Source: Pseudomonadota bacterium
GTDB taxonomy: Bacteria; Pseudomonadota; Gammaproteobacteria; Pseudomonadales; Moraxellaceae
Length of the DNA: 64,000 bases
Direction of reading: 5' to 3'
Assembly (NCBI GenBank): GCA_021851865.1
Contig: JAJZBU010000004.1
Span: 1-64,000 of the forward strand
The position numbers and the translations under genes are program-made. Every line of letters begins with the position of its first letter. Within the stretch, counting starts at the first letter, position 1. Below the pieces are notes generated by a model. The model saw only the letters and a program-made list of their open reading frames with translations, searched no databases and was not told where the DNA came from. This document shows positions 1-15,723 of this stretch, piece by piece.

Positions 1-380
1 TCGCCGGTCGTGTGCCTTTGCTCGGCGTCTGTCTCGGACATCAGGCCATAGGCCAGGTCTTCGGCGGTAAAGTGGTGCGTGCGCGCCAGGTCATGCACGG
101 CAAGACCTCGCCCATTCAGCATCGTGGTCAGGGTGTGTTTCATGGCCTGCCGGTGCCGTTCACCGCTACCCGCTACCACTCCCTCGTCGTTGAACGCAGT
201 ACGCTGCCGGAAGCGCTCGAGATCACCGCCTGGACCGCCGATGCGCAGGGCGAGATCGACGAGATCATGGGGGTGCGGCACAAGACCCTGCCGGTACAGG
301 GGGTGCAATTCCACCCCGAGTCCATCCTCACGCAACATGGCCACGCGCTCTTGCGTAACTTTCTGGAGCTGCGCTCGTGA
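1..380 (+). CDS. trpG: Anthranilate synthase glutamine amidotransferase component, 5' truncated by window edge
   Basis: TrpG hydrolyses glutamine and passes ammonia to TrpE, which makes anthranilate from chorismate in the first step of tryptophan synthesis. The reading frame enters from outside the window, and the first complete codon is at base 3. The class I amidotransferase nucleophile motif [10 protein letters not shown] is visible near the start. The His-Glu pair of the triad lies in the QFHPESI motif near the C-terminus. About 125 residues are present and the N-terminal third is missing. The TGA stop overlaps the GTG start of trpD, the arrangement of a translationally coupled trpGDC operon. 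The closely related folate enzyme PabA is possible from the fragment alone, but trpD and trpC next door favour TrpG. Confidence 0.93.
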
Positions 381-1405
381 TCATCAAAAACGCCCTCAAG
401 AAGCTGGTTCTGCGTGAAAGCCTCAGCGCCGCCGAGATGGCTGCGGTGATGCGGGTGGTCATGTCGGGCGAGGCCAGCGCCGCCCAGATCGGCGGACTGC
501 TCATGGGCTTGGCGGTCAAAGGCGAGAGCATCGACGAGATCCAAGGAGCGGTGACCGTCATGCGTGAGCTGGTGACGCCGGTCATTGTTGATACCACCGG
601 TCTCGTCGACACCTGCGGCACCGGGGGTGATGGCGCCAAGACTTTCAATATCTCGACGGCGGCGGCCCTCGTTGTCGCCGCTGCCGGCGGCCGTGTCGCC
701 AAGCACGGCAATCGCGCTGTTTCCAGTCGTTCCGGCAGTGCCGACGTGCTCGAAGCGGCCGGCGTCCATCTCGAGCTCACGCCACCGCAGCTGGCGCAGT
801 GCCTGCAGAGCCTCGGTGTCGTCTTCCTCTTTGCGCCGCGCCATCATGGCGCCTTGCGCCACGCCGTACAGGCGCGCGCCGATCTCGGCGTACGCACCCT
901 GTTCAACCTGCTCGGCCCGCTCACCAACCCGGCGCGAGCCCCCAACCAGGTCATGGGCGTCTATGAGCGGCGCTGGCTACGTCCCCTCGCCGAAGTGCTG
1001 GGGCGCCTCGGCTCGCGCCACGTTCTCATGGTGCAGGCCGAAGACGGCATGGACGAGATCAGCATCAGCGCCGCGACCCACGTCGTCGAGTGGCGCGATG
1101 GCCATATCGCTGAGTTCGTCTTCGATCCGCGCAGCGTCGGCATGACGCTGGCCGATCGGCGTGTGCTCGAGGTGCTCAGCGTCGAGGACAGCCTGCGCCT
1201 GCTCAAGCAGGGTCTCGTCGCCGGCCACGGCGCCGTCAGCGACATCGTCGCGCTCAACGCTGGTGCCGCCTTGTACGCCAGTGGGCGCAGTACGTCCCTG
1301 GTCGAGGGCATCGCCCTGGCGCAAGCCACCCAGGCGCAGGGCCTGGCGCTCGGCAAACTGCATGCCCTGGTCGAACTGACGCAAGCTTTGGGCGGGAGAG
1401 GATGA
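377..1405 (+). CDS. trpD: Anthranilate phosphoribosyltransferase
   Basis: The enzyme transfers phosphoribosyl from PRPP to anthranilate, the second step of tryptophan synthesis. The 342-residue product is the usual length. It shows the PRPP-binding GTGGDG motif at about 81-86, the NIST motif at 91-94 and the [18 protein letters not shown] segment from about 109. The start is a GTG that shares bases with the trpG stop. The stop shares bases with the trpC ATG (ATGA). The overlaps indicate one coupled transcript with trpG and trpC. The promoter must lie upstream of the window. Confidence 0.97.
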
Positions 1406-2199
1406 TGGCGGTAGCGACGGTGCTCGAACGGATACTCAGCGACAAGCGCACCGAGTTGCGGCAACGGCAGGCGTCCTTGCCAGCGGCGCAGCTGCAGGCG
1501 CAGCTGGCGACGGCGACGCCGGTGCGGCCTTTTCTGTCGGCCTTGCGCCGCAGCGTGCAGGCGGGGCGGGCGGCGGTGATCGCCGAGGTCAAGAAGGCGT
1601 CGCCCTCGAAGGGCGTGCTGCGCGCCGATTTCGATCCTGCCGCCATCGCGCGCTCTTATGAGCGCGGCGGCGCTGCCTGTCTGTCGGTGCTCACCGATCA
1701 ACCCTATTTCCAGGGCCATGACCTCTATTTGCAACAGGCGCGTGCCGCCTGCTCCCTGCCGGTCCTGCGCAAGGACTTCATCGTCGACATCTATCAGGTC
1801 GATGAGGCGCGTCTGCTCGGCGCCGATTGTGTTCTGCTCATCGTCGCCGCCCTCGATATGGCCACCCTGCATACCTGTTATGGGCGCGCCCTGGAGCTCG
1901 GCATGGACGTCCTCATCGAGGTGCACGATGGCGACGAGTTGCAGCGCGCCTTGGCCCTGCAACCGGCGATGATCGGCATCAACAACCGTAATCTGCACGA
2001 TTTCTCGGTGACGCTGGACACCACGTATGAGCTGCTCGCCGCCATCCCCGCGACCACGCTGGTGGTCAGTGAGAGCGGCATTCTGACGCGCGCGCATGTG
2101 GCCGAGATGCGCGCGCATGGCGTGCACAGCTTCCTCATCGGCGAGGCCTTCATGCGCGCAGCGGAGCCGGGCGAGGCGCTGGCGGCGCTCATCGCCTGA
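1402..2199 (+). CDS. trpC: Indole-3-glycerol phosphate synthase
   Basis: TrpC closes the indole ring, turning CdRP into indole-3-glycerol phosphate. The 265-residue protein has the family pattern of a beta/alpha barrel: the [10 protein letters not shown] motif with the catalytic lysine near residue 55-65, the LRKDFIVD motif in the middle, GINNRNL towards the end, and the phosphate-binding SESGI and FLIGEAFMR motifs. It is a stand-alone enzyme, not fused to TrpF. Two ATG codons in a row begin the frame, and the first overlaps the trpD stop. Only 12 bases separate its stop from the end of the convergent DUF4334-type gene. Confidence 0.97.
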
Positions 2200-2211
2200 A
2201 GAACGCTGTTC

Positions 2212-2910
2212 TCACCGGGCGATCGGCGAGAGCTCATCATCGAGTGTCAGGGTGAACCAGCCACCGGCGATGTGCTTGTGCGTCCAGACGCCGAGCAGGA
2301 CGGTCGGTTCGCCATCCAGCGACAGGCGCTTGAAATAGTCCTTCCATGGCTGATGGTCGTAGTTCATGGTGGCGGTGACCTGACCGCGCCAGCGCATGTC
2401 GGTGACGCCGACATTGCCCCACAGCGGCAGCGGGAAAAAGATTTTTTCACGCCAGTGGCCGAGCAGGGGATCGCCCTGCTCGGCGCTGCGATAGCGTTTC
2501 CCCCAACCGAAACCAAGCTTGCCGAGAGGGCGGACGATGGCCCATTCGGCGAGATCGAGCACTGAGCCGCGGGTGCGCAGGATACGCCCGCGCCAGACGC
2601 GCCCGACCAGTTCATCGTTGGCGGTGAGCGACGGCAGGGTATCGTAGAGACGTACCAGATCAGCTTCGAGCTGCGCCTGATCGGCCTGGCTGAGGATCTC
2701 CTGCTGCAAGGTCGCCAGTGATTTGCCGCTGCCGGCGGGCGCCGTCTTGCGCGCATCGTTCCAGATCGAGGTCTGTGGCTGCAGATGACAGAGACCGGCG
2801 ATGGCGTAGTTGAGCGGAAAGCACAGCCATGACACAAGGTCATAAGTGGCGGCAGGTAAGGTGACGAGGCATGGCGCGCGGCGTTGCGTGGTGCGTGGTG
2901 TGGCGGTCAT
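2212..2910 (-). CDS. GXWXG / DUF4334-like protein of unknown function
   Basis: I recognise the general pattern of the GXWXG-DUF4334 family: a LVGRVWRGR motif in the middle, followed later by ATMNYDHQPWKDYF and a closing hydrophobic strand. No enzymatic role is established that I can state. The product is 232 residues. It is translated from an ATG that overlaps the stop of the upstream tetR gene (ATGA), so the pair should be co-transcribed and translationally coupled. A longer in-frame start would run into the tetR coding sequence and is less likely. The N-terminus has a hydrophobic stretch (about residues 24-40) that could be membrane-associated. The link to a repressor with an obvious operator suggests an inducible detoxification or lipid-related job, which is inference. 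Confidence 0.72.
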   Translation of the reverse strand: MTATPRTTQRRAPCLVTLPAATYDLVSWLCFPLNYAIAGLCHLQPQTSIWNDARKTAPAGSGKSLATLQQEILSQADQAQLEADLVRLYDTLPSLTANDELVGRVWRGRILRTRGSVLDLAEWAIVRPLGKLGFGWGKRYRSAEQGDPLLGHWREKIFFPLPLWGNVGVTDMRWRGQVTATMNYDHQPWKDYFKRLSLDGEPTVLLGVWTHKHIAGGWFTLTLDDELSPIAR

Positions 2911-3545
2911 GACGTGACTCCTGGGCGGGAAAAAGTCGCCCAGCAAGCCTCTTCGGCCTGGGCGATGCGGGCCTCATCGAGGCGAAGGTAGCCAGAGTAC
3001 TCGGCTTTGAACAGGCCGACGAAGGCGCCCCAGATCAGCGCCATTAGCACCTCAGCAGGCAGGTCACGGGCGATACCGGCCTGGCGTAGTTGCTCGCAGG
3101 CCAGCCAGATCGGCGCCAGCACCTGGCTTTCCAGGGCGAGACTGTCGGCATCGAGATAGCTCTGGTGGTGATGCAGTTCGAGGAAACGGAATTCGACCGG
3201 GTGACGGCGCGCGAACAGCGCTAGGCGCTGCCAGAGGTGCGAGAAGAGCTGACGCGGCGGCGCCTGCAGATCGAGGTGCTCGTGCAGAAGGGCGCGGAGT
3301 TGGCCCTTGGCCTGTTGAAAGGCGGCATTGACGAGTGCCTGCTTGTCGGTGAAGTGGCGATAGATCGTGCCAGCACCGACCTCGGCCACCGCCGCGATCT
3401 CGGGTACAGCGGTGCCGTGATAGCCACGCTCGGCAAACAGGGTCAAGGCAGCGGCGAGAATGCGCTGGCGCTTGTCGACGGCCGTGGTTGCTGCTGTGGC
3501 AGGGCGGCCGGAGGATATGGGCAAAGTATCGGAATGAATGTTCAT
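2907..3545 (-). CDS. TetR-family transcriptional repressor
   Basis: This 212-residue protein has a classic TetR N-terminal helix-turn-helix: an RQRILAAALTLFAERGYHGT helix pair from about residue 26, then VAEVGAGTIYRHFTDKQAL. The rest is a helical ligand-binding domain typical of the family, whose ligand cannot be predicted. It leads a two-gene transcript with the DUF4334-like gene. The ATG start falls inside a 34-bp perfect inverted repeat at 3523-3556, almost certainly its own operator. Occupancy there would block its own expression and may also affect the divergent lipoprotein gene at 3653. No other ATG lies near the N-terminus, although a TTG at codon 8 exists. Confidence 0.9.
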   Translation of the reverse strand: MNIHSDTLPISSGRPATAATTAVDKRQRILAAALTLFAERGYHGTAVPEIAAVAEVGAGTIYRHFTDKQALVNAAFQQAKGQLRALLHEHLDLQAPPRQLFSHLWQRLALFARRHPVEFRFLELHHHQSYLDADSLALESQVLAPIWLACEQLRQAGIARDLPAEVLMALIWGAFVGLFKAEYSGYLRLDEARIAQAEEACWATFSRPGVTS

Positions 3546-3556
3546 TCCGATACTTT
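3523..3556. promoter_or_regulatory. 34-bp palindrome, probable TetR operator
   Basis: Two perfect 16-base arms (AAAGTATCGGAATGAA and its reverse complement) are separated by only TG. Each half contains CGGAATGAA, so the site looks like back-to-back dimer sites. It lies in the divergent gap between the tetR-like gene and the lipoprotein gene and covers the tetR start codon and first few codons. Autorepression by the adjacent TetR protein is the straightforward reading, but it is inferred from position and symmetry. Confidence 0.75.
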
Positions 3557-3652
3557 AGGCGTCAAGAGAACAGTTGTCAACGGAACGTCATGGCACAGTC
3601 ATCAATGCTGCGCACAATGCCTCCGACTCAACGGATGGACAAGGAGCCCATC

Positions 3653-4789
3653 ATGAAGTATGCGCTACGGTTAGGAGTTCTGAGTGGTCTGAGTGTGCTG
3701 TTGGCGGCCTGCGGCAATTCGAGCTCATCCGCATCGGGCCCGGCTCTGCCGAGTGGCGTCGAGGTCTTGCAGGGTGCCTATCATCTCAGCATCTTCGCGC
3801 AGCCGACGGGGGTGCTCAGCAGCCTGCGTCCGGACGATCTCCTGCAGGTGGGTAGCACCGTCTACGTCAACTATCAGGATCACAACAACCTTCCCGATGG
3901 CAGCAATGCCCCCGGCACGACGCCGCAGAGCATGCTCGCCGCCTATAATCTGCAAGGCCAGCTGCTCGCCACCTACAAGGTGCCGGGCCATCCGGATGGC
4001 TTGGTGTCGCCCGATGGCAGCAAGGTCTGGGTCAGCAGCAACGAGGATGGCAATCCCCTGCTGACCATCCTCGATCCACAGCAGAACACCCTGACCACGC
4101 TGAGCAGCGACACCCTGCCCCTGGCGCATGGCGGTGGCCTCGACGACATGAAGGTGATCGCCGGTCAGGTCTACGTCAGCGCCTCAGCCCCGAGCACCAC
4201 GATGTCACCGACGCCCAATCTCGCGCCCTACTCGACCGATGCTGCCGGCGCCACCGCCCAGTTCGGCGTCAATACCGGACCGGTGGTCTATCAGATCAGT
4301 CTGAACAGCGACGGCAAGACCTATCATCTGACCTCGGCGCTGTCCTCGAGCACGCCGGCGACCCTGTTGCCGGGCAAGACGACGGTGACCTTGAATATGA
4401 CCGACGCTGACTCCTCAGCCATCGATCCGGCCGGCGATCTCGTCGTCGACAGCCAGCAGGACAGCGAGTTGGTCTTCATCAAGAATCCAGGGCAGAGTGG
4501 CATGGCGGTGTCGGTCCTGCCGATCACCCTCTATGGCAATCCCTGGCCGATCGATGACACGCGCTGGGCGCCGGCGGCGAGCGGTTCCGGCGTCGTTCCT
4601 TACATGCTCTTCTCCGACAACAAGGCGCAGATCATCTACCGTGTCGACGCCAATGGCGGCTTCACCGCTGGCACTGCCTATAGCTCGGCGCAGGGCATGA
4701 TCACGCAGACCGACACCGGCAGCGGCATGCTGACGCCCATCATCATGGGACTGAATGCGCCGCATGGTCTGATCTTCGTGCAGCCTTGA
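3653..4789 (+). CDS. Secreted lipoprotein, probable beta-propeller, unknown function
   Basis: The chosen ATG has an AAGGAG ribosome-binding site 7 bases upstream and gives a clean lipoprotein signal peptide: MKYALRL, a hydrophobic core, then the lipobox LLAAC with the lipidated cysteine at residue 20. A Ser-rich linker (SSSSAS) follows. The 378-residue mature part has repeated segments such as DGLVSPDGSKVWVSSN and DPAGDLVVDSQQDS, a pattern seen in NHL/YncE-type beta-propellers. I do not recognise a specific family or binding partner. It stands alone, divergent from the tetR pair and convergent with vfr. It could respond to the same palindromic operator, whose right edge is 97 bases from the start codon. 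Confidence 0.7.
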   Translation: MKYALRLGVLSGLSVLLAACGNSSSSASGPALPSGVEVLQGAYHLSIFAQPTGVLSSLRPDDLLQVGSTVYVNYQDHNNLPDGSNAPGTTPQSMLAAYNLQGQLLATYKVPGHPDGLVSPDGSKVWVSSNEDGNPLLTILDPQQNTLTTLSSDTLPLAHGGGLDDMKVIAGQVYVSASAPSTTMSPTPNLAPYSTDAAGATAQFGVNTGPVVYQISLNSDGKTYHLTSALSSSTPATLLPGKTTVTLNMTDADSSAIDPAGDLVVDSQQDSELVFIKNPGQSGMAVSVLPITLYGNPWPIDDTRWAPAASGSGVVPYMLFSDNKAQIIYRVDANGGFTAGTAYSSAQGMITQTDTGSGMLTPIIMGLNAPHGLIFVQP

Positions 4790-4797
4790 GGATGAGG

Positions 4798-4825
4798 CGC
4801 GGGCTCTTCGCTATGCGGGCCCGCG
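4798..4825. terminator. GC-rich hairpin between convergent genes
   Basis: CGCGGGC and GCCCGCG form a 7-bp stem around a 14-base loop in the short space between the lipoprotein stop and the vfr stop. No run of T follows on either strand, so it is a weak or bidirectional terminator candidate only. Confidence 0.35.
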
Positions 4826-5461
4826 TCAGCGTGTGCCGAAAACGACCATGGTCTTGCCCTTGACGTTGAGCAGACCCTGCTCTTCGAGAGACTTGAGGAC
4901 GCGTCCGACCATCTCGCGCGAGCAGCCGACGATGCGACCGATCTCCTGACGAGTGATGCGGATCTGCATGCCATCCGGATGGGTCATGGCGTCGGGCTGG
5001 CGACACAGATCGAGGAGGGTGCGGGCCACCCGGCCGGTGACATCGAGAAAGGCGAGGTCACCGACTTTACGCGTCGTGGCACGCAGACGACCGGCCATCT
5101 GCGCCGCGACGGCAAAGATCATGCCGGCATTCTGCCGCGCCAGCTCCTTGTAGCGAGCATAGCTGATCTCGGCGATTTCACAGACACTGCGCGCGCGTAT
5201 CCAGGCGGAGCGCACGGGGGCGTCTTCGAACAGACCCATCTCGCCGAAGAAGTCACCGGCGTTGAGATAGGCCACCACCATATCGCGCCCCTGGTCATCC
5301 TGGATGACGACCGACACCGAACCGCTGATGATGAAATAGAGACTCTGCGAGCTTTCACCGGCCTGGATGATGGCGCTGCGCGCCGGGTATTTGCGCAGCT
5401 GGCAGTGGCTGAGGAATTCTTCGATTTGTGGAATGTGGGCATTGCTCGGCAGACGAGCCAT
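4826..5461 (-). CDS. vfr: CRP/Vfr-family cAMP-responsive global regulator
   Basis: This 211-residue protein matches the Pseudomonas CRP homologue Vfr. The N-terminal cyclic-nucleotide-binding beta-roll holds GDFFGEMGLFE and RSAW, the phosphate cassette of cAMP binding. The central dimer helix contains TTRKVGDLAFLDV. The C-terminal winged helix carries TRQEIGRIVGCSREMVGRVL as recognition element and ends with GKTMVVFGTR. In Pseudomonas, Vfr controls virulence, twitching motility and quorum sensing. The ATG at 5461 is preferred because upstream in-frame codons do not resemble the family. It is divergent from osmC, the same arrangement as in Pseudomonas next to trpGDC. Confidence 0.95.
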   Translation of the reverse strand: MARLPSNAHIPQIEEFLSHCQLRKYPARSAIIQAGESSQSLYFIISGSVSVVIQDDQGRDMVVAYLNAGDFFGEMGLFEDAPVRSAWIRARSVCEIAEISYARYKELARQNAGMIFAVAAQMAGRLRATTRKVGDLAFLDVTGRVARTLLDLCRQPDAMTHPDGMQIRITRQEIGRIVGCSREMVGRVLKSLEEQGLLNVKGKTMVVFGTR

Positions 5462-5585
5462 GGCGTGCTCCGTGTCGGTGAAAGGGATCAACATACACGC
5501 CGGCATGGGAATTGCCAATCCTGGCGTCTTGCTGGCCCGGCGCCGAGCGGTCACAATGAGCTTTGTTCTCGGTGGGAGTGGTGCG

Positions 5586-6026
5586 ATGCAGGCAAGTATC
5601 AAGTGGATTGAGGATGTGACCTTTATGGCGACCTCGGGTAGTGGTCATGCCCTGATCATCGATGGCCCGCCGGACAAAGGTGGCCGCAATCTCGGTCCGC
5701 GGCCGATGGAGATGTTGCTAATGGGCCTCGGCGCCTGCAGCTCTTTCGATGTCGTCTCCATCCTGCGCAAGGCGCGTCAGGACGTGGTCAGCTGCGAGGC
5801 GCAGCTCGAAGCCGAACGCGCTGACGCCGTCCCGGCGGTGTTCACGCGTATCCACCTGCGTTTCATCGTCAAAGGCCGGGCTCTGAAAGCGGCCCAGGTC
5901 GAACGCGCCGTCGCCCTGTCGGCGGAGAAATACTGCTCGGCCTCGATCATGCTCGCCGCTGGCGGTGTCGCCATCAGCCATTCCGTCGAGATTCATGAAC
6001 TCGACGCTGGCAGCGCTGCAAATTAG
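5586..6026 (+). CDS. OsmC-family protein
   Basis: The 146-residue protein is an OsmC/Ohr-fold protein, a family that reduces organic peroxides or handles stress-derived thiol substrates. Two conserved cysteines are present, C51 in GACSSFD and C117 in EKYCSAS, consistent with the redox pair. It corresponds in position to the OsmC gene that follows vfr in Pseudomonas. The start at MQASIKW fits homologues better than upstream in-frame Met codons. Its last codons and TAG stop lie inside the 16-bp sequence that is repeated at the far end of the ggp islet. Confidence 0.9.
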   Translation: MQASIKWIEDVTFMATSGSGHALIIDGPPDKGGRNLGPRPMEMLLMGLGACSSFDVVSILRKARQDVVSCEAQLEAERADAVPAVFTRIHLRFIVKGRALKAAQVERAVALSAEKYCSASIMLAAGGVAISHSVEIHELDAGSAAN

Positions 6027-6030
6027 ATGC
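6015..6030. repeat. Left copy of 16-bp direct repeat bounding the ggp islet
   Basis: GCTGCAAATTAGATGC occurs here and again, identically and in the same orientation, at 8982-8997. This copy holds the end and stop codon of osmC. The bases outside differ on both sides, so the identity is exactly 16 bp. Confidence 0.9.
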
Positions 6031-6666
6031 TTCATGGCGGTAGCCGCCCCCCGGGCACGGACAAAACCACGGCCAATCTATGAAATATGGCCAGCGGCAA
6101 GTATTTCATGATCATGCCTAGTCCGGCCAAGGGGCCCGGGTTCCGCATCGCCGGCGAACAAAGTTGAAAGGTTGATCTGCTGAAAATCGACCAGCGATGG
6201 CTTGTGAAGAAGGTTTCATTGTATTGACCATCTAATGACTTTTCTCTGGGCTTACTGTAAAAACATAAGAACAAGTTTGGCGTGATTCGGCGCAAGAATG
6301 TAACTTGTTGAAATGTATTTTAAATGTATTTGTAGGTCGGCGCTCATCAAACACAGCGCGTCGCCAAGAAAGGCCATGAAACGGGTCCTTGAATGAGGTG
6401 CCTCTGGCCAGGACCGGCAGAAACGATATATCCTAATGTTGTAGAGTCTGGCAGAACATCTGATTCAGCATACAGATGATCAATATTCTGCTATCGCCCG
6501 GCGTTGATGCCGACCTTATGAAATACTCGTGCCTCAGGCACAAGACAAATCATTCGCTAAACTCAGTAACCGCCTATGACGGATGGACGGTTAATAAAAA
6601 ATATCAGCAATTTTAATCGGTGTTGTTTTATGTCTAAATTCGAAGAAGTATTGCAAGGTGTTTCTA
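6027..6666. other. 640-bp gene-poor, AT-rich left arm of the islet
   Basis: No convincing coding sequence is seen. An 87-codon open frame on the minus strand (6032-6295) has no recognisable family. Two small inverted repeats lie near the osmC end: GGCGG/CCGCC around TAG at 6036-6048, and ATGAAATA/TATTTCAT at 6080-6109. A GC-richer patch at about 6335-6430 stands out from the AT-rich surroundings and could be a relic of another element. The promoter for the ggp genes should lie in the last 200 bases, but no confident -35/-10 pair was picked. Confidence 0.55.
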
Positions 6667-7416
6667 GTGCATGAGTTTAAAGACAAAAACAGGTTTGTTC
6701 TAGCCACGGATCTTGATGGAACTTTTCTCGGTGGGAGTGCCGCCGAGCGTGATTCACTATACAAGTGGATCGAGCAACACCGCGATAAATTCGTCCTCAT
6801 ATTCGTCAGTGGTCGAGGTTAGGGCTTTATGCGCGAATTGGCGCATTCGTTACCGATTCGCCCTGATGTGTGCATCGGTGACGTGGGGACGAGTGTCCAT
6901 TTTGGTCCTGAACTGATGCCTCTGTCGGATATTGAAGACTGGATCGATTCAGCATGGCGGCCGGATGCTTCGGCTGCCATCGCTGCGGCATTACAAATGT
7001 GTGCGCAACTGTGTCCGCAGCAGCATTGCGGCGGTCGACGCTTGTCGTACACATTCAAAGATCTGAATAGCGCCTATCGTGCCGTCTTGATGATACGCGC
7101 GCATGGGTTTGATGCCTTGATTTCCTCAGCATTTTCTTGATGTGCTGCCACGCGGCGTACAAAAGGGATCTACTTTGCTTCGTACATTGAATCATCTTGA
7201 ATTGTCGTTGAATAAAACTTTCGTTGCCGGAGACACTCTCAATGATTTCTCAATGTTCGAATCCGGATTGACCGGCGTTGTTGTTCACAACAGTGAGTCG
7301 GCCCTGAAGCAGGCTTTGGTAGATCGTGAAAATGTTTATTTTTCAGCGCCAATGGCGCGGCGGGTGTGCTTGAAGGTCTTAAATGCTTCTACTACTCAAA
7401 AGGGGATGATAAATGA
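6667..7416 (+). pseudogene. Broken HAD-IIB phosphatase, likely glucosylglycerol-phosphate phosphatase
   Basis: Joining three frames gives a HAD-family phosphatase of about 250 codons. Motif I is ATDLDGTF near the start and motif II is FVSGRG. DVLPRGVQKGSTL and FVAGDTLNDFSMF are the conserved C-terminal motifs, and a GAAGVLEGLK tail ends the protein. Lesions: an in-frame TAG at 6820-6822 right after SGRG, a frame change near 7130-7140, and a second, compensating frame change in a T-rich run near 7340. The true stop TGA at 7414-7416 overlaps the ggpS ATG, so the ancestral pair was translationally coupled. In some Pseudomonas an equivalent phosphatase domain is fused to the synthase. The GTG at 6667 is a tentative start. 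Confidence 0.82.
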
Positions 7417-8963
7417 CGTCTTCACTCGTGATCGTGTATCACCGCGAACCCTATGAAGAATATGCTGTGGATGGACAGCGATTCTTGAAAGAGAACGCAA
7501 GTCCGAACGGCATCATCCCGGCATTGAAGGGGGTTATCACTCGTGTCAACAGCGCCTCATGGATCGCCTGGAAAGAGCTTTCTGATGAATCCGCTCACCT
7601 CTTCACTCGCAATGTACATATTGATGATAGCTATGGCAGTTACAATGTGGTTCGTCTGCCCTTGTCGCGTGCCCAGATCGAGCAATTTTATTTCATCACC
7701 TCGAAGGAAGCATTGTGGCCTGTCATTAACAGTTTCCCATCGTACTATTCGACACAATACACCGATTGGTCAGTTTTTCGCGAGGTCAATCGACATTTCG
7801 CTGATGCTATCTGTGAAGAGGCGGAAGAAGGCGGCTTGGTGTGGATACATGACTACAACCTCTGGCTGGTTCCTGGCTTTGTCCGCGCTTTGCGGCCTGA
7901 CCTGAGCATTGCCTTTTTTCACCACACGGCATTTCCGTCTGCGGACATATTCGCTATCCTGCCGTGGCGTGATGAGATCCTGTCCAGTTTGCTGCAGTGT
8001 GACTTGATCGGATTTCATGTTCCGCGCTACGCTCATAATTTTGCCCGTACAGCACAATCGCTCTGTGCTATAGATCAGGTGAACACCTTGCCTGTGGCGT
8101 CATCATGTCGTTCCATCGGTGGCGCTTTGAGCGAAACTTCCGTGCCATCCGAGATCATCTACCAGCAACGCAGTATTCTCATTGACTCCTGCCCGATTGG
8201 GCCACATACGCAGATGATCATCGACTTTGTCCAGACAGATGAAATTGCTGCTCGGGTCGAGGAGATACGAAAAATTCACCGCGAAGAGATCATCATCGTC
8301 TCGGTCAGCAGGATCGACTACTCAAAGGGTATCGTCGAAATGTTGATGACTTTTGAGCGGCTGCTGCAACGCCGTCCAGAGCTGTGCGGTCGCATCAAGC
8401 TGTTGCTCACGGCGGTTTCTGCTGCAAATGGCATGCGTATCTACCGCCAATCCGAGCAAACCATTGAACAAACCGTGGGTCATATCAACGGCTTATATGG
8501 CACCTTGGAATGGGTTCCTGTCGTTTTGTCGACAACGGCGATGCCTTTTGAAGAGACCATGTGTCACTATCGTGCCGCCGATATTTGCTGGGTGACCCCA
8601 CTGCGCGATGGTTTGAACTTGGTCGCCAAAGAATTTGTCGCATCTCATGTTAATGCCGGTGGCGTGCTGGTTTTGTCAGAATTCGCCGGGGCCGCCATAG
8701 AGCTCTCCGATGCCATATTGGTCAATCCCTATAGCAGAAACCAAATGGACGACGCTATTGATCGGGCCATTGACATGCCTTATGAGGAGCAGAAACAACG
8801 TATGACCAAGCTCGGAAAGCAGGTCTTACGCAATAACATTTCCAACTGGACCGATCACATGTTGGACCTGTTCAGAAAAATTTCGGCCCAACATGAGAGC
8901 AACGGCCTCACCAAGCTTGCACGTCGAACTTCCTTCTGGAAAAGCGAAAGACGATGGAAGTGA
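7413..8963 (+). CDS. ggpS: Glucosylglycerol-phosphate synthase (GT20 family)
   Basis: The product joins glucose from ADP-glucose to glycerol 3-phosphate, giving the phosphate of the compatible solute glucosylglycerol. The 516-residue protein is the usual size. SSLVIVYHREPYEE and SPNGIIPALK at the N-terminus are GgpS hallmarks that separate it from trehalose-6-phosphate synthase OtsA. WVHDYNLWLVP, AFFHHTAFPS, SRIDYSKG and TPLRDGLNLVAKEFV mark the GT-B nucleotide-sugar fold. The coding sequence has no interruption. It starts at an ATG overlapping the stop of the broken phosphatase gene. Composition is AT-richer than the neighbours, in line with transfer. It ends 18 bases before the right repeat. 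Confidence 0.9.
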   Translation: MTSSLVIVYHREPYEEYAVDGQRFLKENASPNGIIPALKGVITRVNSASWIAWKELSDESAHLFTRNVHIDDSYGSYNVVRLPLSRAQIEQFYFITSKEALWPVINSFPSYYSTQYTDWSVFREVNRHFADAICEEAEEGGLVWIHDYNLWLVPGFVRALRPDLSIAFFHHTAFPSADIFAILPWRDEILSSLLQCDLIGFHVPRYAHNFARTAQSLCAIDQVNTLPVASSCRSIGGALSETSVPSEIIYQQRSILIDSCPIGPHTQMIIDFVQTDEIAARVEEIRKIHREEIIIVSVSRIDYSKGIVEMLMTFERLLQRRPELCGRIKLLLTAVSAANGMRIYRQSEQTIEQTVGHINGLYGTLEWVPVVLSTTAMPFEETMCHYRAADICWVTPLRDGLNLVAKEFVASHVNAGGVLVLSEFAGAAIELSDAILVNPYSRNQMDDAIDRAIDMPYEEQKQRMTKLGKQVLRNNISNWTDHMLDLFRKISAQHESNGLTKLARRTSFWKSERRWK

Positions 8964-8981
8964 GGGCATCGTTCGCATTAT

Positions 8982-8997
8982 GCTGCAAATTAGATGC
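8982..8997. repeat. Right copy of 16-bp direct repeat bounding the ggp islet
   Basis: Identical to 6015-6030. Here it covers the end of coq7: on the minus strand it reads GC ATC TAA, the last Ile codon and stop. The same bases in the left copy supply the osmC stop on the plus strand. Confidence 0.9.
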
Positions 8998-9637
8998 GGT
9001 AAGCGCTGCGCGTCATCACCTTGGCCATGGCCTGCATCAGGCGGGTCACTGGGGGGGGCAAGGCGACACCGCCGGCGGCACGCGCCTGGGCGCCATGCCG
9101 TTCTTCGTCCTCGGCCATGAGCGCAACGATGGCGCGCGACTTGAGGTCCTGAGCCGGCAAATGCGCCAGGTGCTCCTGCAGGTGGCGACCGACCTGACGT
9201 TCGGTTTCAGCGACGAAGCCGAGGCTGATCTCGTCGCCAGCGAGGCCGGCGACGGCACCGACGACGAAGGACAGGCCATACCAGAGCGGGTTGAGGCGAC
9301 TGGTCGAGTAGCCGAGTTCATGCACGCGATGCTCGCACCAGGCGAGATGATCGGTCTCCTCGCGCGCCGCCTGCGCCATCTGCTCGCGCACGGCCGGCAG
9401 CCTGGCGGTGAGGGCCTGCCCCTGGTAGAGGGCCTGGGCACAGACTTCGCCGCTGTGGTTGACGCGCATGAGGCCGGCGGCGTGCCGCTTCTCCTCGGCG
9501 CTCAAGGTGGTGGTGGCGATAGAGCTGTCGGGATGCGGGCGTTGACTGCTCACCGCTTGCGGACTCAAGGTGCGGAGCAGACGATCGGCCTGCAGAACCC
9601 AGTGATCACTCGGACGTAGATGACGCATGGCGCTCAC
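8990..9637 (-). CDS. coq7: Demethoxyubiquinone hydroxylase (diiron)
   Basis: Coq7 carries out the last hydroxylation in ubiquinone synthesis. The 215-residue protein shows the carboxylate-bridged diiron ligand set: E64 in VNHSGEV, E94-x-x-H97 in EETDH, a Glu near 144-146 and E178-x-x-H181 in EDEERH. A hydrophobic segment (FVVGAVAGLAG) fits its membrane-surface location. The gene overlaps the stop of the upstream HIT gene by four bases, so the two are likely co-transcribed. In Pseudomonas, coq7 follows osmC with speD between them. Here the ggp islet occupies that interval. Confidence 0.96.
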   Translation of the reverse strand: MSAMRHLRPSDHWVLQADRLLRTLSPQAVSSQRPHPDSSIATTTLSAEEKRHAAGLMRVNHSGEVCAQALYQGQALTARLPAVREQMAQAAREETDHLAWCEHRVHELGYSTSRLNPLWYGLSFVVGAVAGLAGDEISLGFVAETERQVGRHLQEHLAHLPAQDLKSRAIVALMAEDEERHGAQARAAGGVALPPPVTRLMQAMAKVMTRSAYRI

Positions 9638-9975
9638 CCCGGTGGCCAGGACAGACGACGACCGGCGAGGACGTGGAGATGCAGATGATCGACGCTCTGC
9701 CCGCCATCCTGATGGCAGTTGATCACCGTGCGGTAGCCGGACGCGGCGACGCCGAGTTCGCGCGCCAAACGTCGTGCCGTGCCGAGCAGTTCGCCGAGCA
9801 GGGCGTCGTGTTCGTCACCGACGGCGTCGAGGCTGGCGTGATGGGTCTTGGGGATGACCAGGAAATGGGTCGGTGCCTGGGCAAAAATATCGCGAAAAGC
9901 GATGATGCGTTCATTTTCGAAGAGCAGCTGTGCCTGCGCTTCGTGCCGGGCGATTTTGCAGAAGATACAGTCCAC
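9634..9975 (-). CDS. HIT-family nucleotide-binding hydrolase (HinT-like)
   Basis: This 113-residue protein opens with DCIFCKIARHE and contains the histidine triad HLHLHVL, the active site of HinT purine nucleoside phosphoramidases. I chose a GTG start at 9975 because an AGGAG site lies 7 bases upstream and the product then begins exactly as family members do. Longer in-frame extensions have no homology-like sequence. The stop overlaps the coq7 start. Two cysteines in CIFCK and a downstream His resemble the zinc site seen in many HinT proteins. Confidence 0.92.
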   Translation of the reverse strand: MDCIFCKIARHEAQAQLLFENERIIAFRDIFAQAPTHFLVIPKTHHASLDAVGDEHDALLGELLGTARRLARELGVAASGYRTVINCHQDGGQSVDHLHLHVLAGRRLSWPPG

Positions 9976-10042
9976 GTCGGACTCCTGCGGCGGTGGGGAG
10001 TCCACTCTAGCCTGCCGGCGCGCGCCTCGCAAGAGGCCGCAC

Positions 10043-11974
10043 TCAGGGTACGATGGTCTGGTCGATGAAGCTGGCTTTCTCCTCCGCCGTACTGGGGCGC
10101 ATGTGGTCTTTATCCTTGTACAGGGGGTCGCCATCGTCGTCGACCGTGGCGCAGCGCTCGGCATTGCACAAGATGGTGAGTGGATCGATCAGGTGGGCGC
10201 CGCTGCGCTCTGCGATCACCCGGATCCAGGCCTCGGCCGAGAGATCCTTCTCCACTTGCAGCCGGCTTACGCTCTCCGGTGGTGGTGGCAGGAAGGGCAG
10301 GCGCTGCACCTGATTTTGCGGCACAAAGAGACGCCCGACCGGATTCGAGAGCAGGATGTAGACTTTGATGCCGCGCTGGCGCCAGGCGCGGATGTCCTGT
10401 GCCAGGGCGAGGGTGGCGCGTTGATACCCAGGCCAGTGTTCGTAGCGCTCCCAGTAGTTGTCGATGACGATGCGGCGCACATGCGCGGCGCTGGCGTAGC
10501 GCTGCGCCGCCTCATAGACCCTGGCGCAACCACCGGCGGGATAGTTGGGGCTGTTCGGGCGGTTCAGTCCAGGCAGGGCAGCGCAGCCGTCATAGGTGGC
10601 GAAGCGCAAGGTGAAGTAGCCGGGATGACGCGCGTAGTCTTCGGCAAAACGCGGCCAGTACTGTTCCATATGGCTATCGCCGATGAACAGCACCTCGTCG
10701 TGGCTGCGGCCGGGCAAGGTATTGCTGCGCAGGTGCTGACCATCGAAGCTGATGCCCGGGTAGTCCCAGTCACCGATGGCTTCTTCGACGCCGCTGTTGG
10801 TGAGGTCGATGTTACGCTGAGGCAGGCCTTCCTGTTGGCGCACATAGTAGCCATAGGCGAAGATCATGGACATGGCCAGGAGCAGCAGCAGACTCCAGCG
10901 GCGCCGGTGATCGCTGCGCCGCAGCGGTAGCTCGATGTAGCGATAGCTGAGCCAGGCGAGGACGAAGGCGAGCAGCAGCATCGCCGCCGCGAGCAAAGCC
11001 GGGAGGCGACCGGCGTCGGCCTGACGTGCGAAGACCAGCAGTGGCCAGTGCCATAGGTAGAGCGGATAGCTGATCAGGCCGATAGCGACGGGGAAGCGGT
11101 GTGCCAGGACGGAACGATTGAAGGGATTGTCGAGGCCGGCGTCGATGAACAACCAAGCGCTGAGCACCGGCAGCAGAACCCAGAAACCGGGGAAGAGCGA
11201 GTCAGGATTGAGCAGGCAGCAGGGCAGGATCAGGGCGAGCAGGGCGGTCAGGCTTTGCAGCAGTGCCGCGTGCCGCCCAAGGTAGGGTGCCAAGCCGCGC
11301 CAGGAACTGCCGGGGCGGTGCAGATAAGCGAGTATGCCGCCGCTGAGCAACTCCCAGAAGCGCGGCGGCAGGCCATAGAAAGCGGTGGTCGGGTTGTTGT
11401 AGACGTCGAGCAGGCTGAGCGCCCAGCTGAGGCAGGCGAGACCGAAGAGGAGGCCGAGAACGTGTCGGCTCTCGCGGCGCCAGATGAAAGCGAGCAGGGG
11501 TGGAAAGATGATGTAGTATTGCTCCTCGACGCCGAGCGACCACAGGTGCAGCAGGGGTTTGCTCGTCGCCGCCATGTCGAAATAACCGGATTCACGGCGC
11601 AGGACTTCATTGGCGACGAAGGCGGCGCCGCCGGCGGCGAGGGTGCCGAGCTGGGCGTATTCACTGGCCAGCAAGGTGAAAGCGCCGTAGGCCAGGCAAG
11701 CGCCGAGCACGAGGATGAGCACCGGAAAGATGCGCAGGATGCGGCGCTGGTAAAAGTCGATGATGGAGTAGCGGCCCTGGCGCAGGCGCTCGAGCAGCAG
11801 GCCGGTGATGAGAAAACCGGAGATGACGAAGAAGACGTCGACGCCGACGAAGCCGCCGGGCAGGGCGCGTGGGTAGGCGTGGTAGAAAACCACCGACAGC
11901 ACCGCCAGCGCGCGTAACCCGTCGATGTCGGGGCGATAGGACGACGCATGCAAAGGAGGAGTTGCTCGGGTCAT
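10043..11974 (-). CDS. OafA-type membrane O-acyltransferase with C-terminal SGNH domain
   Basis: The 643-residue protein combines an acyltransferase-3 membrane domain (RPDIDGLRALAVLSVVFYH at the N-terminus, FFVISGFLI, about ten hydrophobic helices to near residue 370) with a periplasmic SGNH hydrolase-like domain. In that domain FIGDSHMEQYWPR supplies the Ser block and DKDHMRPS near the end supplies the Asp-His pair. Such proteins move acyl groups, usually acetyl, onto O-antigen, peptidoglycan or other surface glycans. It is a stand-alone gene between the HIT gene and the divergent PP-loop gene, 5.6 kb from the polysaccharide operon, so its substrate cannot be assigned. Confidence 0.9.
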   Translation of the reverse strand: MTRATPPLHASSYRPDIDGLRALAVLSVVFYHAYPRALPGGFVGVDVFFVISGFLITGLLLERLRQGRYSIIDFYQRRILRIFPVLILVLGACLAYGAFTLLASEYAQLGTLAAGGAAFVANEVLRRESGYFDMAATSKPLLHLWSLGVEEQYYIIFPPLLAFIWRRESRHVLGLLFGLACLSWALSLLDVYNNPTTAFYGLPPRFWELLSGGILAYLHRPGSSWRGLAPYLGRHAALLQSLTALLALILPCCLLNPDSLFPGFWVLLPVLSAWLFIDAGLDNPFNRSVLAHRFPVAIGLISYPLYLWHWPLLVFARQADAGRLPALLAAAMLLLAFVLAWLSYRYIELPLRRSDHRRRWSLLLLLAMSMIFAYGYYVRQQEGLPQRNIDLTNSGVEEAIGDWDYPGISFDGQHLRSNTLPGRSHDEVLFIGDSHMEQYWPRFAEDYARHPGYFTLRFATYDGCAALPGLNRPNSPNYPAGGCARVYEAAQRYASAAHVRRIVIDNYWERYEHWPGYQRATLALAQDIRAWRQRGIKVYILLSNPVGRLFVPQNQVQRLPFLPPPPESVSRLQVEKDLSAEAWIRVIAERSGAHLIDPLTILCNAERCATVDDDGDPLYKDKDHMRPSTAEEKASFIDQTIVP

Positions 11975-12134
11975 CGCGGTCGGTTAAGAAAGGTAAACCG
12001 CAAGCATAACACGCACATCCGACAAGGAAAATGACCACCGCCGCGACAGCGGCGGCGCGCGCATCCGTCGGCGGCGCTTGGGTTGCGCGCCGTGGCCACG
12101 TATAATGCCGCCTTTTGATGAGACGGATGCCTCC

Positions 12135-13193
12135 ATGCAGCGCAAAGCTTTGGCCTTGATCTCCGGTGGACTGGACTCGATGCTGGCCGCCAAGCTCATG
12201 CTGGAGCAAGGTATCGCGGTCGAAGGCGTCAATTTCTACACCGGCTTTTGTGTCGAAGGGCACACGCACGCCATCCGTGCCGCCGCCGCTGCGCGTCCGA
12301 AGCGCAATAATGCCCTGTGGGTGGCGGAGACACTGGGAATACGCCTGCACATCGTCGACGTCAGTGAGGACTACAAGCGCATCGTCCTGCATCCGCAACA
12401 CGGCTACGGTGCTCACCTCAATCCTTGCCTCGACTGCAAGATCTACATGCTCAATCAGGCCAGTCTTTTTCTCAATCGCGCGCGACAGCTGGCCGACGAC
12501 GCCGGCATGGATTTCATCGTCACCGGCGAGGTCGCCGGCCAGCGCCCGAAGTCGCAACGGCGCCGTTACCTGCCGCTGGTGGCGCGTGAATCGGGGGTCG
12601 ACGACCGCGTCCTGCGCCCGCTCAGCGCCAAATTGCTGGAACCGACCTGGGCGGAGCGTCAGGGCTGGGTCGATCGCGAACGGCTCTATGGCTTTCATGG
12701 CCGCTCGCGGCAGCCGCAGATCGCTCTGGCGCAACGACTGGGACTTGCCGACTGGTCGCAGCCCTCGGGCGGCTGCTGCTTTCTCACCGATGAGAGCTAC
12801 AGTCGCAAACTCAAGGACCTGTGGTCGGCGCGCGGCAAGCGCGACTATCAGCTTGACGACATCCTCATGCTCAAAGTCGGCCGGCATCTGCGCCCACGAC
12901 CGCACTTCAAGCTGATCATCGCGCGCGAGGAAGGCGAGAGCTATTTTCTCGAGGGCTATCGCAAAGAATTCACCCACCTGCGCCCGCTGCAGCACAAGGG
13001 CGCGCTTTGCCTCGTCGATGGCGAGTTGCAGCCGCAGGATTATGAACTGGCGGCGCGCATCGTCGCGCGTTACAGCCAGGGACGCGACGCCGACGCGGTC
13101 GACATCGGCGTTTTCGCCGGTGATGAAAGTTTGGCGCAGTTGCAGGTGCGTCCTATGGCCCAGGACGAGATTCGGCAGGAATGGTATGTCTGA
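12135..13193 (+). CDS. MnmA-like PP-loop enzyme, probable tRNA or small-molecule thiolation
   Basis: The 352-residue protein starts with the ATP-pyrophosphatase loop SGGLDSM (residues 10-16). It keeps cysteines where MnmA has its catalytic ones: C98 and C101 in NPCLDCK (compare NPD..C in MnmA) and C214-C215 in SGGCCFLTD (compare GICFI). The last 120 residues (LMLKVGRHLRPRPHFKLIIA onward) are unlike MnmA and resemble the RNA-binding NFACT-R/DUF814 domain. It is not the housekeeping MnmA and is often mis-annotated as a tRNA methyltransferase. Its stop overlaps the start of a TusA-like sulfur carrier, so a sulfur transfer reaction is the best inference. The substrate is unknown. Confidence 0.78.
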   Translation: MQRKALALISGGLDSMLAAKLMLEQGIAVEGVNFYTGFCVEGHTHAIRAAAAARPKRNNALWVAETLGIRLHIVDVSEDYKRIVLHPQHGYGAHLNPCLDCKIYMLNQASLFLNRARQLADDAGMDFIVTGEVAGQRPKSQRRRYLPLVARESGVDDRVLRPLSAKLLEPTWAERQGWVDRERLYGFHGRSRQPQIALAQRLGLADWSQPSGGCCFLTDESYSRKLKDLWSARGKRDYQLDDILMLKVGRHLRPRPHFKLIIAREEGESYFLEGYRKEFTHLRPLQHKGALCLVDGELQPQDYELAARIVARYSQGRDADAVDIGVFAGDESLAQLQVRPMAQDEIRQEWYV

Positions 13194-13413
13194 ACCCTAT
13201 CTTTTGGACGCGCGTCGTTTATTATGTCCGCTGCCGGTGATCCGCACCCAGCAGCGCATCCGCGATTTGCACCCCGGTGACTTGCTCTGGGTCAGTGCCA
13301 GCGATCCCGGGGTCATGCAGGATATTCCGGCTTGGTGCCGGGTGCATGGCCACCGGGTGCGTGAGACTGTGGTGGAAGGTCGCGAATACCGCCTGCTGAT
13401 CGAGGTGCTTTGA
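13186..13413 (+). CDS. TusA/SirA-family sulfur carrier protein
   Basis: A 75-residue protein with the TusA signature LDARRLLCPLPVI, in which Cys14 would carry the persulfide. The body (GDLLWVSASDPGVMQDIPAWC) is typical of the two-layer TusA fold. The gene overlaps the end of the PP-loop gene by eight bases, so the carrier is probably made together with the enzyme it serves. True TusA in the tRNA 2-thiouridine relay is usually encoded elsewhere. This is more likely a dedicated paralogue. Confidence 0.88.
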   Translation: MSEPYLLDARRLLCPLPVIRTQQRIRDLHPGDLLWVSASDPGVMQDIPAWCRVHGHRVRETVVEGREYRLLIEVL

Positions 13414-13440
13414 TTCAAAGTGGTGCGGCGGCGAATGTTT

Positions 13441-13457
13441 TGCACTATTTTGGTGCC
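13441..13457 (+). promoter_or_regulatory. NtrC binding site upstream of glnA
   Basis: TGCACTATTTTGGTGCC matches the NtrC consensus GCAC-N7-GTGC and nearly repeats one of the classic Escherichia coli glnA enhancer sites. It lies about 65-80 bp upstream of the -24 element, a normal distance for an enhancer acting through looping. Confidence 0.78.
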
Positions 13458-13521
13458 ATGCTCGTCCCCTGGGGGCGGAACGAGTTTGTCAAGGCACTGA
13501 AATATAAGGCGTATGATGTTA

Positions 13522-13536
13522 TGGTACGCAAATTGC
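13522..13536 (+). promoter_or_regulatory. Sigma-54 (RpoN) promoter of glnA
   Basis: TGGTACGCAAATTGC has the invariant GG and GC doublets of a -24/-12 promoter at exactly ten bases spacing. It sits 86 bases before the glnA start codon and downstream of an NtrC site, the expected arrangement for nitrogen-controlled glnA. Confidence 0.82.
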
Positions 13537-13621
13537 CTCCTGCTGTGCGGCGATGCGCACGGGGCCGCTTTTGTGCAGGTGCCCGGAATGAACGAAGTTT
13601 TAACCTGGTTCGGAGGACCAT

Positions 13622-15031
13622 ATGTCCAACAAGACGCTTGATTTGATCCAAGAAAATGACGCCAAGTGGGTCGATTTCCGCTTCACCGACACGCGCGGCA
13701 AGGAACAACATGTCTCCTATCCGGCGTCGACGGTGGATGCTGAGACCTTCGTCACCGGCAAGATGTTCGACGGTTCGTCGATCTCCGGTTGGAAGGGCAT
13801 CGAAGCCTCCGACATGATCCTGCTGCCGGAAGCCGACTCGGGCTTTCTCGACCCCTTCTTCGATGAGCCGACCATCGTCGTGCGTTGCGATATCATCGAG
13901 CCGTCCACCATGCAAGGCTATGAGCGCGACCCGCGCTCCCTGGCCAAGCGCGCGGAAGCCTATCTGAAGTCGACGGGCATCGCCGATACCGCCTATTTTG
14001 GACCGGAACCTGAATTTTTCGTCTTTGATGAAGTGAAGTTCTCCATCGACATGAGTGGCGCCCGTCACACCATCTACGCCGAAGAAGCGGCCTGGTCGAC
14101 GGATCGTGACTATGAAGGTGGCAACACCGGCCATCGTCCGCGCGTCAAGGGCGGCTATTTCCCGGTGCCGCCGGTCGATTCCGGACAAGACCTACGCGTC
14201 GCCATGTGCAACGCCATCGAGTCGATGATGGGCCCGGGCCGTTTGGAAGTGCAGCACCACGAAGTGGCCTCCTGCCAGAGCGAGATCGGCGTCTCCTTCA
14301 ACACCCTGGTGAAGAAGGCCGACGAAGTGCAGATCCTCAAGTATGCGGTGTGGAACGTCGCGCACGCCTACGGCAAGACGGCGACCTTCATGCCCAAGCC
14401 CATCGTCGGTGACAATGGTTCCGGCATGCATGTGCACCAGTCCCTGTCGAAGGATGGCAAGAATCTGTTCGCCGGCGACCAGTACGGTGGACTGTCGGAA
14501 ATGGCCCTGTACTACATCGGTGGCATCATCAAGCACGCGCGCGCGCTCAACGCCATCACCAACCCGGCGACGAACAGCTACAAGCGCCTGGTGCCGCACT
14601 TCGAAGCGCCGATCATGCTCGCCTACTCGGCGCGCAACCGTTCCGCCTCGATCCGCATCCCCTACGTCTCGAACCCGAAGGGACGCCGCATCGAGACGCG
14701 TTTCCCGGATCCTTGCGCCAATCCGTACTTGGCGTTCGCGGCCCTGCTGATGGCAGGTCTCGACGGCATTCAGAACAAGATTCATCCGGGCGATGCCATG
14801 GACAAGAATCTCTATGATCTGCCGCCGGAAGAAGAGGCGAAGGTGCCGACCGTGGCGCACAGCCTCGAGATGGCCCTCGATGCGCTCAAGGCGGATCATG
14901 ACTTCCTGCTCAAAGGTGGCGTCTTTACCCAGGAGTTCCTCGATTCCTACATCGAGCTCAAGAACGAGGAAGTGCGTCGCCTGAACACCACCACCCATCC
15001 GGTGGAGTTCGAGATGTATTACAGCCTCTGA
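13622..15031 (+). CDS. glnA: Glutamine synthetase type I
   Basis: GlnA makes glutamine from glutamate, ammonia and ATP and forms a dodecamer. At 469 residues it is the standard GSI-beta length. Motifs include [14 protein letters not shown] near the N-terminus, metal ligands in [11 protein letters not shown], the [13 protein letters not shown] loop and [10 protein letters not shown]. Tyr398 in NLYDLPPEE is the adenylylation site acted on by GlnE, which is encoded at 30361-33090 of this window. A strong CGGAGG site precedes the ATG. Control is by NtrC and sigma-54 (sites at 13441 and 13522). A terminator follows at 15051. Confidence 0.98.
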
Positions 15032-15050
15032 GCTGCAGCATCCTGCGTTG

Positions 15051-15076
15051 AAAAAGGGGCCGCGTGCCCCTTTTTT
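15051..15076 (+). terminator. Rho-independent terminator of glnA
   Basis: AAAAAGGGGC and GCCCCTTTTTT form a perfect stem around CGCGT and end in a run of six T, 20 bases after the glnA stop. The leading A run also allows function on the opposite strand for the GNAT gene. Confidence 0.92.
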
Positions 15077-15132
15077 CATGTGCGCCGCACGAGCGCGGCG
15101 TCATACTGCATCAACAGCTGAGCCAAGTCGTC

Positions 15133-15675
15133 TTATGGATGCTCATCGCCAGCGCAGGGTTTGTGCTCATGATGGTGCGCATCGAGCGTATGCCGATAGA
15201 GGAAATAGCGCAGTCCATGCCGGGGTGGCAGCTCGCCAACCCGCTGAAACCCGGCTTGCTCGTAGAGGTGATGGGCGGTCGTCATCGACGCGCTGGTGTA
15301 CAAGCCTACGGCGGGGGCGCGATCGTCCCTGGCGCGCTGTACACAAGTGTCGATCAGGGCTCGGCCGAACCGCCGGCCGCGATGACCGGGTGCGACGGCG
15401 AGCAGGAGAATGGACGCCCAGGCCGATGGGATCGGGGCGCGTGACCGTCCTGGCGGACAATAGGCGATGGAACCGACGATAGGTCCCTGATGCCGGATAA
15501 CGAAGAACTGGGCGAATTCCGCCAGCTGCTCGACGCGTGGCAAAGAGACCTGCGCCTTCATGGCAGCCCAGTGGTCGGCCGCCATGGTGCCGGAAAACTC
15601 TTCGAAAGCCAGCATATTGACGCGCGCGATGGCCGTCAGATCAGCGGCGCCGGCGACTTCAATACACAAGGTCAT
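15133..15675 (-). CDS. GNAT-family N-acetyltransferase
   Basis: A 180-residue protein with the acetyl-CoA-binding motif A of the GNAT fold: ILLLAVAPGHRGRRFGRALI, where the R/Q-x-x-G-x-G/A type loop is HRGRRFG, followed by LYEQAGFQRVGE, the usual motif B. Substrate unknown. The C-terminal tail is His-rich (AHHHEHK). It is convergent with glnA and shares the glnA terminator region. It precedes no obvious partner gene. Confidence 0.82.
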   Translation of the reverse strand: MTLCIEVAGAADLTAIARVNMLAFEEFSGTMAADHWAAMKAQVSLPRVEQLAEFAQFFVIRHQGPIVGSIAYCPPGRSRAPIPSAWASILLLAVAPGHRGRRFGRALIDTCVQRARDDRAPAVGLYTSASMTTAHHLYEQAGFQRVGELPPRHGLRYFLYRHTLDAHHHEHKPCAGDEHP

Positions 15676-15723
15676 GGCAGGCGAGGCCAGCCCTGCACGC
15701 GAGGGTGACAGGGCCTGACTTTT

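Follow-up and report, generated by a model that had tools for sequence, protein, structure and literature searches.

In the 64,000-nucleotide stretch of DNA analyzed here (the window; positions 1 to 64,000 of contig JAJZBU010000004.1 in the Moraxellaceae assembly GCA_021851865.1, genome G000), the convergent genes osmC and coq7 are held apart by an AT-rich block, hereafter the islet, that carries the genes ggpP and ggpS and lies between two copies of a perfect 16-bp direct repeat. The islet is a short piece of acquired DNA flanked by a target duplication, well documented and otherwise fairly ordinary. We consider it probable that an outside enzyme inserted a foreign fragment at the point where the stop codons of osmC and coq7 overlap, with duplication of 16 bp, that this occurred before G000 separated from a nearer relative, G002, and that the ggpP-ggpS pair is now decaying. 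The long target duplication is supported by an empty site in the same genus, and comparison with G002 reveals a block that is probably of greater age and more mixed make-up than its appearance suggests.

A 16-bp direct repeat seated on two stop codons

The repeated 16-mer, GCTGCAAATTAGATGC, occupies positions 6015-6030 and 8982-8997 of the window on the forward strand. A first-pass annotation of this DNA had noticed no other copy, and a count over the whole G000 genome (2,442,041 bases, ~2.44 Mb) likewise returned these two perfect copies and no third. The left copy spans the last codons of osmC together with its TAG (6024-6026), and the right copy covers, on the opposite strand, the last codons of coq7 together with its stop (TTA on the forward strand, 8990-8992), as the annotation had read them. 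Both genes are intact. OsmC (OsmC family protein; 5577..6026, plus strand) scores above the cut-offs of PF02566 and NF008009, and the G002 protein is 93% identical to it; coq7 (2-polyprenyl-3-methyl-6-methoxy-1,4-benzoquinone monooxygenase; 8990..9637, minus strand) reaches 304 bits against NF033656, for which the cut-off is 180.

An empty site in a close relative had been suggested as a supporting comparison, and G001, which belongs to the same genus, provides one in positional form. There, osmC and coq7 converge so closely that their tails overlap, with no insert between them, and the G000 junction, once the two copies of the repeat are collapsed into one, aligns to G001 across the whole interval with zero internal gaps; the divergence of G001 is too great for the 16 letters themselves to be recognizable. 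The repeat and the gap-free collapsed junction together support an insertion at the exact junction that duplicated 16 bp and left both osmC and coq7 intact, as originally proposed. Repeat length alone is weak proof, since perfect direct repeats this long (16 bp or more) and spaced by up to 5 kb occur three times in the window, and position counts for more. With up to three mismatches allowed, the 16-mer has three matches in the window against 0.53 expected, the third being a partial match at position 8421, inside ggpS. Chance is a poor explanation for the placement of the repeat on both gene ends and on both borders of the low-GC (guanine plus cytosine) block, combined with the gap-free match to G001.

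The junction was also surveyed in relatives. Of the 48 genomes with coq7, 30 were examined, G000 included, with 1.5 kb of flank at each of the 29 non-self loci. OsmC lies beside coq7 within that distance at 17 of these loci, separated by 8 to 978 bp (measured between BLAST match ends), and the gap is at most 141 bp in 10 of the 17, so that junctions too tight for speD are common. The larger gaps hold various open reading frames (ORFs), three of which were scanned: that of L027, an order-level relative, encodes an AdoMet decarboxylase (speD-like), that of L020 a DUF4442 protein, and that of L010 gave no match in a Pfam scan. The earlier remark that this interval holds speD in Pseudomonas was accordingly right in kind, but it does not describe the 10 relatives with short gaps.

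Three further observations concern the surroundings of the repeat. Gene order, read from the ORF list with Pfam assignments for the last three genes, is trpG-trpD-trpC ... crp-osmC-coq7; together with the two very large genera of the host family (g15 and g8), it suggests Moraxellaceae. A 15-base identical stretch, TTCTCGGTGGGAGTG, occurs at 5566-5580, just 5' of osmC, and at 6725-6739, within the ggpP remnant; G002 differs at the 5566-5580 copy, and the match is likely due to chance because seven repeats of at least 15 bases within 5 kb occur in the window. An inverted repeat at 5955-5972/9062-9079 was rejected as a candidate: by reading of the alignment it is not kept in G001, and it looks like a chance product of GC-rich coding sequence.

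An acquired ggpP-ggpS pair with a broken phosphatase gene

The islet has a GC content of ~49% against 63% for the window, with steps at both borders; its ggp genes lie at 49-50%, and the GC content at third codon positions of ggpS is 0.58 compared with 0.73-0.84 in seven other genes. These values support the AT-rich character noted in the first-pass annotation. GgpS (7413..8963, plus strand) is an open frame of 516 amino acids encoding a glucosylglycerol-phosphate synthase of the GT20 family. It scores 620 bits against TIGR02398 (cut-off 569), covering model positions 1-481 of 487, and 436 bits against PF00982. Among the columns that are invariant in 26 GgpS-type rows of an alignment (row L036 being left out of the count), it keeps 106 of 107, the sole departure being H94F.

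We searched for GgpS in a family set of 348 genomes, including G000 and two very large genera (g15 and g8). Matches were found in 128 genomes, G000 among them, and none in G001 or G002. The best match besides the window is L034 of genome G015 (42% identity, 414 bits); the next whole-length matches fall to ~32% and 205 bits, and G020 has 43% identity over ~100 residues at a contig end. The GgpS tree has 28 rows, chosen by hand from 80 loci (the top 80 out of 464) together with L034 and the window. It excludes L035, L036, and L039, distant OtsA-like rows being among those dropped, and one stop within the matched range was removed from each of L054 and L060 before alignment. The window GgpS is sister to L045 (support 98/95). 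The two belong to a clade of 13 rows (100/100), the rest of which consists of betaproteobacterial or unassigned "Proteobacteria" records. A tree that groups it with L034, from the same family, is rejected (p-AU 8.4e-05), a result to be read with caution as L034 sits on a long branch. Judged from these sequence comparisons, the cargo is horizontally acquired and lies closest to beta-proteobacterial-type loci. Islet DNA matched only itself within G000; a search of plasmid DNA gave four short matches, all ggpS-type; GgpS patterns matched nothing in viral contigs; and Rfam gave no hit over 5500-9500 up to an E value of 1.

The upstream gene, ggpP (6667..7416, plus strand; start codon assigned by reading), is a pseudogene for a HAD-type glucosylglycerol-phosphate phosphatase. 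Compared with two intact homologues, it carries an in-frame TAG at 6820-6822 and frame breaks near 7126-7132 and 7340-7347, and it no longer forms an open reading frame. Its sucrose-phosphatase/HAD-type stretch still matches the ggpP ORFs of L045 and L046, and the motifs DLDGT and GDTLND remain legible. All three lesions are confined to a single gene of 750 bp, and the neighboring osmC, coq7, and ggpS are open, which makes stray sequencing error an unlikely cause. With ggpP destroyed, the DNA encodes a broken pathway and leaves an orphan synthase, whose branch is long (0.64 compared with 0.15 for its sister L045, ~four times longer). A branch of this length is what weak constraint or a change in base composition would give. 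We infer functional loss in the cell, and we caution that an acquired "osmolyte islet" should not be taken as a working trait when its phosphatase gene is broken.

At the close ggpS loci L045 and L046, the translations read as a ggpP and a ggpS that overlap but are not fused, with an mscS-like channel ORF next in line. ABC-transporter-like ORFs adjoin ggpS at L045, suggesting an osmotic-stress gene cluster.

A mosaic block shared in part with a nearer relative

Over positions 1-6180 of the window, G002 is 90.5% identical at the DNA level. It has osmC, the 16-mer with two mismatches, and the 150 bp with which the insert opens (6031..6180; 142 of 149 aligned bases, one gap), and it differs beyond 6180. 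Its two changes in the 16-mer, one at a silent osmC site and the other at a base beyond the osmC stop, are both at positions freely variable in the left copy. The insertion most likely predates the split of G000 and G002, since G002 carries the same left end. For the span 6015-6670, a search of the 348 family genomes matched G000 and G002 only, with two candidates scored per genome in the 22 rows listed.

Internally, the block changes in composition. The shared 150 bp have a GC content of 58% and contain a possible minus-strand ORF without a family match (none in Pfam; one chance-level match in the plasmid search). They are followed by an AT-rich non-coding stretch (6181..6666, GC 42%), which was found in G000 only by the family DNA search and gave no match in the plasmid DNA search, and then by the ggp genes. 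These steps (58%, 42%, 49-50%), together with the break in similarity to G002 at 6180, indicate a mosaic. The repeat bounds this mosaic, and it may not have formed when ggp arrived. The simplest reading of G002 is that it lost the ggp part or never had it. The label "ggp islet" given in the first-pass annotation overlooks that ggpP is a pseudogene, that the block is a mosaic, and that its leftmost 150 bp are common to G002.

The conservation of the 150 bp is ordinary. Their identity to G002 is 95.3% against a mean of 90.8%, and 18% of 392 windows do as well. Nor is the DNA folding of 6015-6185 unusual (z -1.17).

Several features of the G002 assembly bear on this region. On the 3' side of the 150 bp (L145:6830-7374, contig G002:C68), the translation reads as an apparent end of an IS3-type insertion sequence (IS) transposase, followed by repeats and the contig end. 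This stretch includes a segment with relatives in G001, and a ~130-bp repeat within it occurs at many places in G002 and G000, often at contig ends. The repeats behind the 150 bp recur at several places in G002, G000, and G001. Coq7 was not found in the G002 assembly, and a DNA search that scored 40 of 147 candidates recovered only short scraps of window positions 9010-16000.

The inserting enzyme and competing explanations

No transposase or integrase was recognized among the islet ORFs, of which those of at least 80 amino acids were listed and a few shorter overlapping ones left unscanned; the family-scanned ORFs were ggpS, two ggpP pieces (Pfam and NCBIfam for these and ggpS), and an ORF of 87 amino acids. 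Within this scope, the initial impression of an enzyme-free islet holds. It had also been supposed that a 16-bp duplication implies either an unusual integration route or a recombinase acting in trans; no new route is implied, as similar lengths are documented: two members of the IS1634 family are reported with repeats of 8-514 bp (PMC2266710), and the casposon of A. boonei duplicates 14-15 bp of target (PMC6614799). A transposase of the IS1634 family is present in G002 (266 bits, cut-off 100), with partial matches below the cut-off in G000 (four) and G001 (one), and none lies at the islet site. The partial matches are located on G000:C21, C31, and C33 and on G001:C88, and the longer one on G002:C5, at a contig end. 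Finally, a search for the 16-mer bounding other cargo, also proposed at the outset, found one exact copy among the 347 other family genomes, in an AT-rich, unannotated, and unrelated-looking context. By exact matches, neither G000 nor the family shows repeated use of the 16-mer as an attachment site.

We favor a long-stagger recombinase or transposase, either att-type at a gene end or IS1634-like, as the more plausible agent over repair-type joining. Such an enzyme, working in trans or lost since, would have inserted foreign DNA where the stop codons of convergent osmC and coq7 overlap, duplicating 16 bp, and the common left end suggests that it did so before G000 and G002 separated. The phylogeny suggests that the ggpP-ggpS pair was donated by a beta-proteobacterial-type lineage; the fragment would then have been passively inherited while GgpP was destroyed. 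Several observations weigh against this account. No terminal inverted repeats were detected when the outermost 50 bases of the two ends were compared in ungapped 10-base stretches (best 7 of 10), and the islet shares only chance words of 15 and 17 bases (L192) with the IS1634-bearing stretches. The dyad symmetry of the 16-mer is weak (10 of 16, equaled or bettered by 4% of random 16-mers from the window), so that it hardly supports an attachment site. The right-hand junction is unseen in G002, whose contig ends in repeat DNA, and the same insert is not proven there. Moreover, the two G000 copies are still identical even though ~12 of their positions could have changed by drift; calculated from half of the third-position divergence of osmC from G002 (40/150), the probability of this is ~0.2 if the insertion predates the split, which mildly favors a younger event.

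Among the alternatives, it is possible, and we hold it tentatively, that the block arose in two steps, an element with the 150-bp left end having made the 16-bp duplication and ggp having come later inside it, replacing or joining its debris. The 150 bp are more host-like in GC content than the stretch and genes that follow, and in G002 they continue, diverging from 6180, into the IS3-type fragment (by reading) and repeats with no ggp; however, IS activity may have removed ggp from G002, and base composition says little over a stretch as short as 150 bp. It is unlikely that an IS1634-like transposase with long, variable duplications was responsible, its gene and ends lost later or acting in trans. 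The repeat lengths cited above and the occurrence of the family in the genus speak for it, but the usual repeat in this family is ~5 bp according to PMC2266710, and the islet offers neither inverted ends nor a recognized transposase, with only chance words in common with the IS1634 copies. Integration of the tyrosine-recombinase type at both gene 3' ends, with the enzyme in trans and the 16-mer as att core, would explain a perfect repeat at gene ends, the restoration of both genes, and two genomes with the same left end and different DNA behind it. Given the lack of a recognized islet integrase, the weak dyad symmetry, the near absence of the 16-mer elsewhere, and the want of GgpS matches in viral contigs, it appears doubtful.

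Repair-type capture, in which foreign DNA was joined between the filled-in ends of a staggered double-strand break, needs no terminal repeats or insert-borne enzyme gene and should permit any duplication length. Nevertheless, Ku gave no match in G000 (a control search found it in Bacillus subtilis), which makes classical bacterial end joining unlikely, and we regard this route as quite improbable. It would be more surprising still if the osmC/coq7 overlap were an attachment site for enzyme-free islets with a shared ~150-bp left end, a recombinase encoded elsewhere, and exchangeable cargo (ggp in G000, other DNA in G002). Were such an islet family real, the meeting point of two convergent genes would serve as an attachment site, usable with no harm to either gene. 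A chance repeat or an assembly artefact would draw on the frequency of direct repeats of this length in the window; set against the exact seat on both stop codons, the GC step at both borders, the gap-free empty-site alignment, and the same left junction in the independent G002 assembly, its probability is negligible.

Comparison with known systems

Passive genomic islets at gene 3' ends are att-flanked remnants without an integrase. The islet resembles them in its gene-end direct repeat, foreign GC content, and lack of a recognized recombination gene; unlike them, it sits at a tail-to-tail overlap of protein genes rather than at a tRNA gene, and no related island with the same repeat was found. 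With no integrase recognized in it and no shared core elsewhere, it does not classify as an att-type genomic island. The IS1634 family (IS1549/IS1634) shares with it a long target duplication, reported for two members (PMC2266710), and is present in the genus; the transposase and terminal inverted repeats that define IS1634-type elements were not recognized in the islet. Casposons are similar in duplication length (A. boonei, PMC6614799) and differ in that the islet has no recognized Cas1 or polymerase ORF and no terminal inverted repeats (Cas1 was not searched for genome-wide).

Among the papers listed by the literature searches, no title or abstract opening describes ggp genes at an osmC-coq7 junction. 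A fused ggpPS has been described in heterotrophs (PMC10873239), and both the islet and the L045/L046 loci differ from that form in having ggpP and ggpS separate. The islet departs from L045 and L046 in its broken ggpP and in the absence of the mscS-like ORF (by reading). It nevertheless retains the same arrangement, with ggpP directly 5' of ggpS and overlapping it, and its GgpS, above the TIGR02398 cut-off, is like those of the ggpP-ggpS systems of cyanobacteria and some Proteobacteria.

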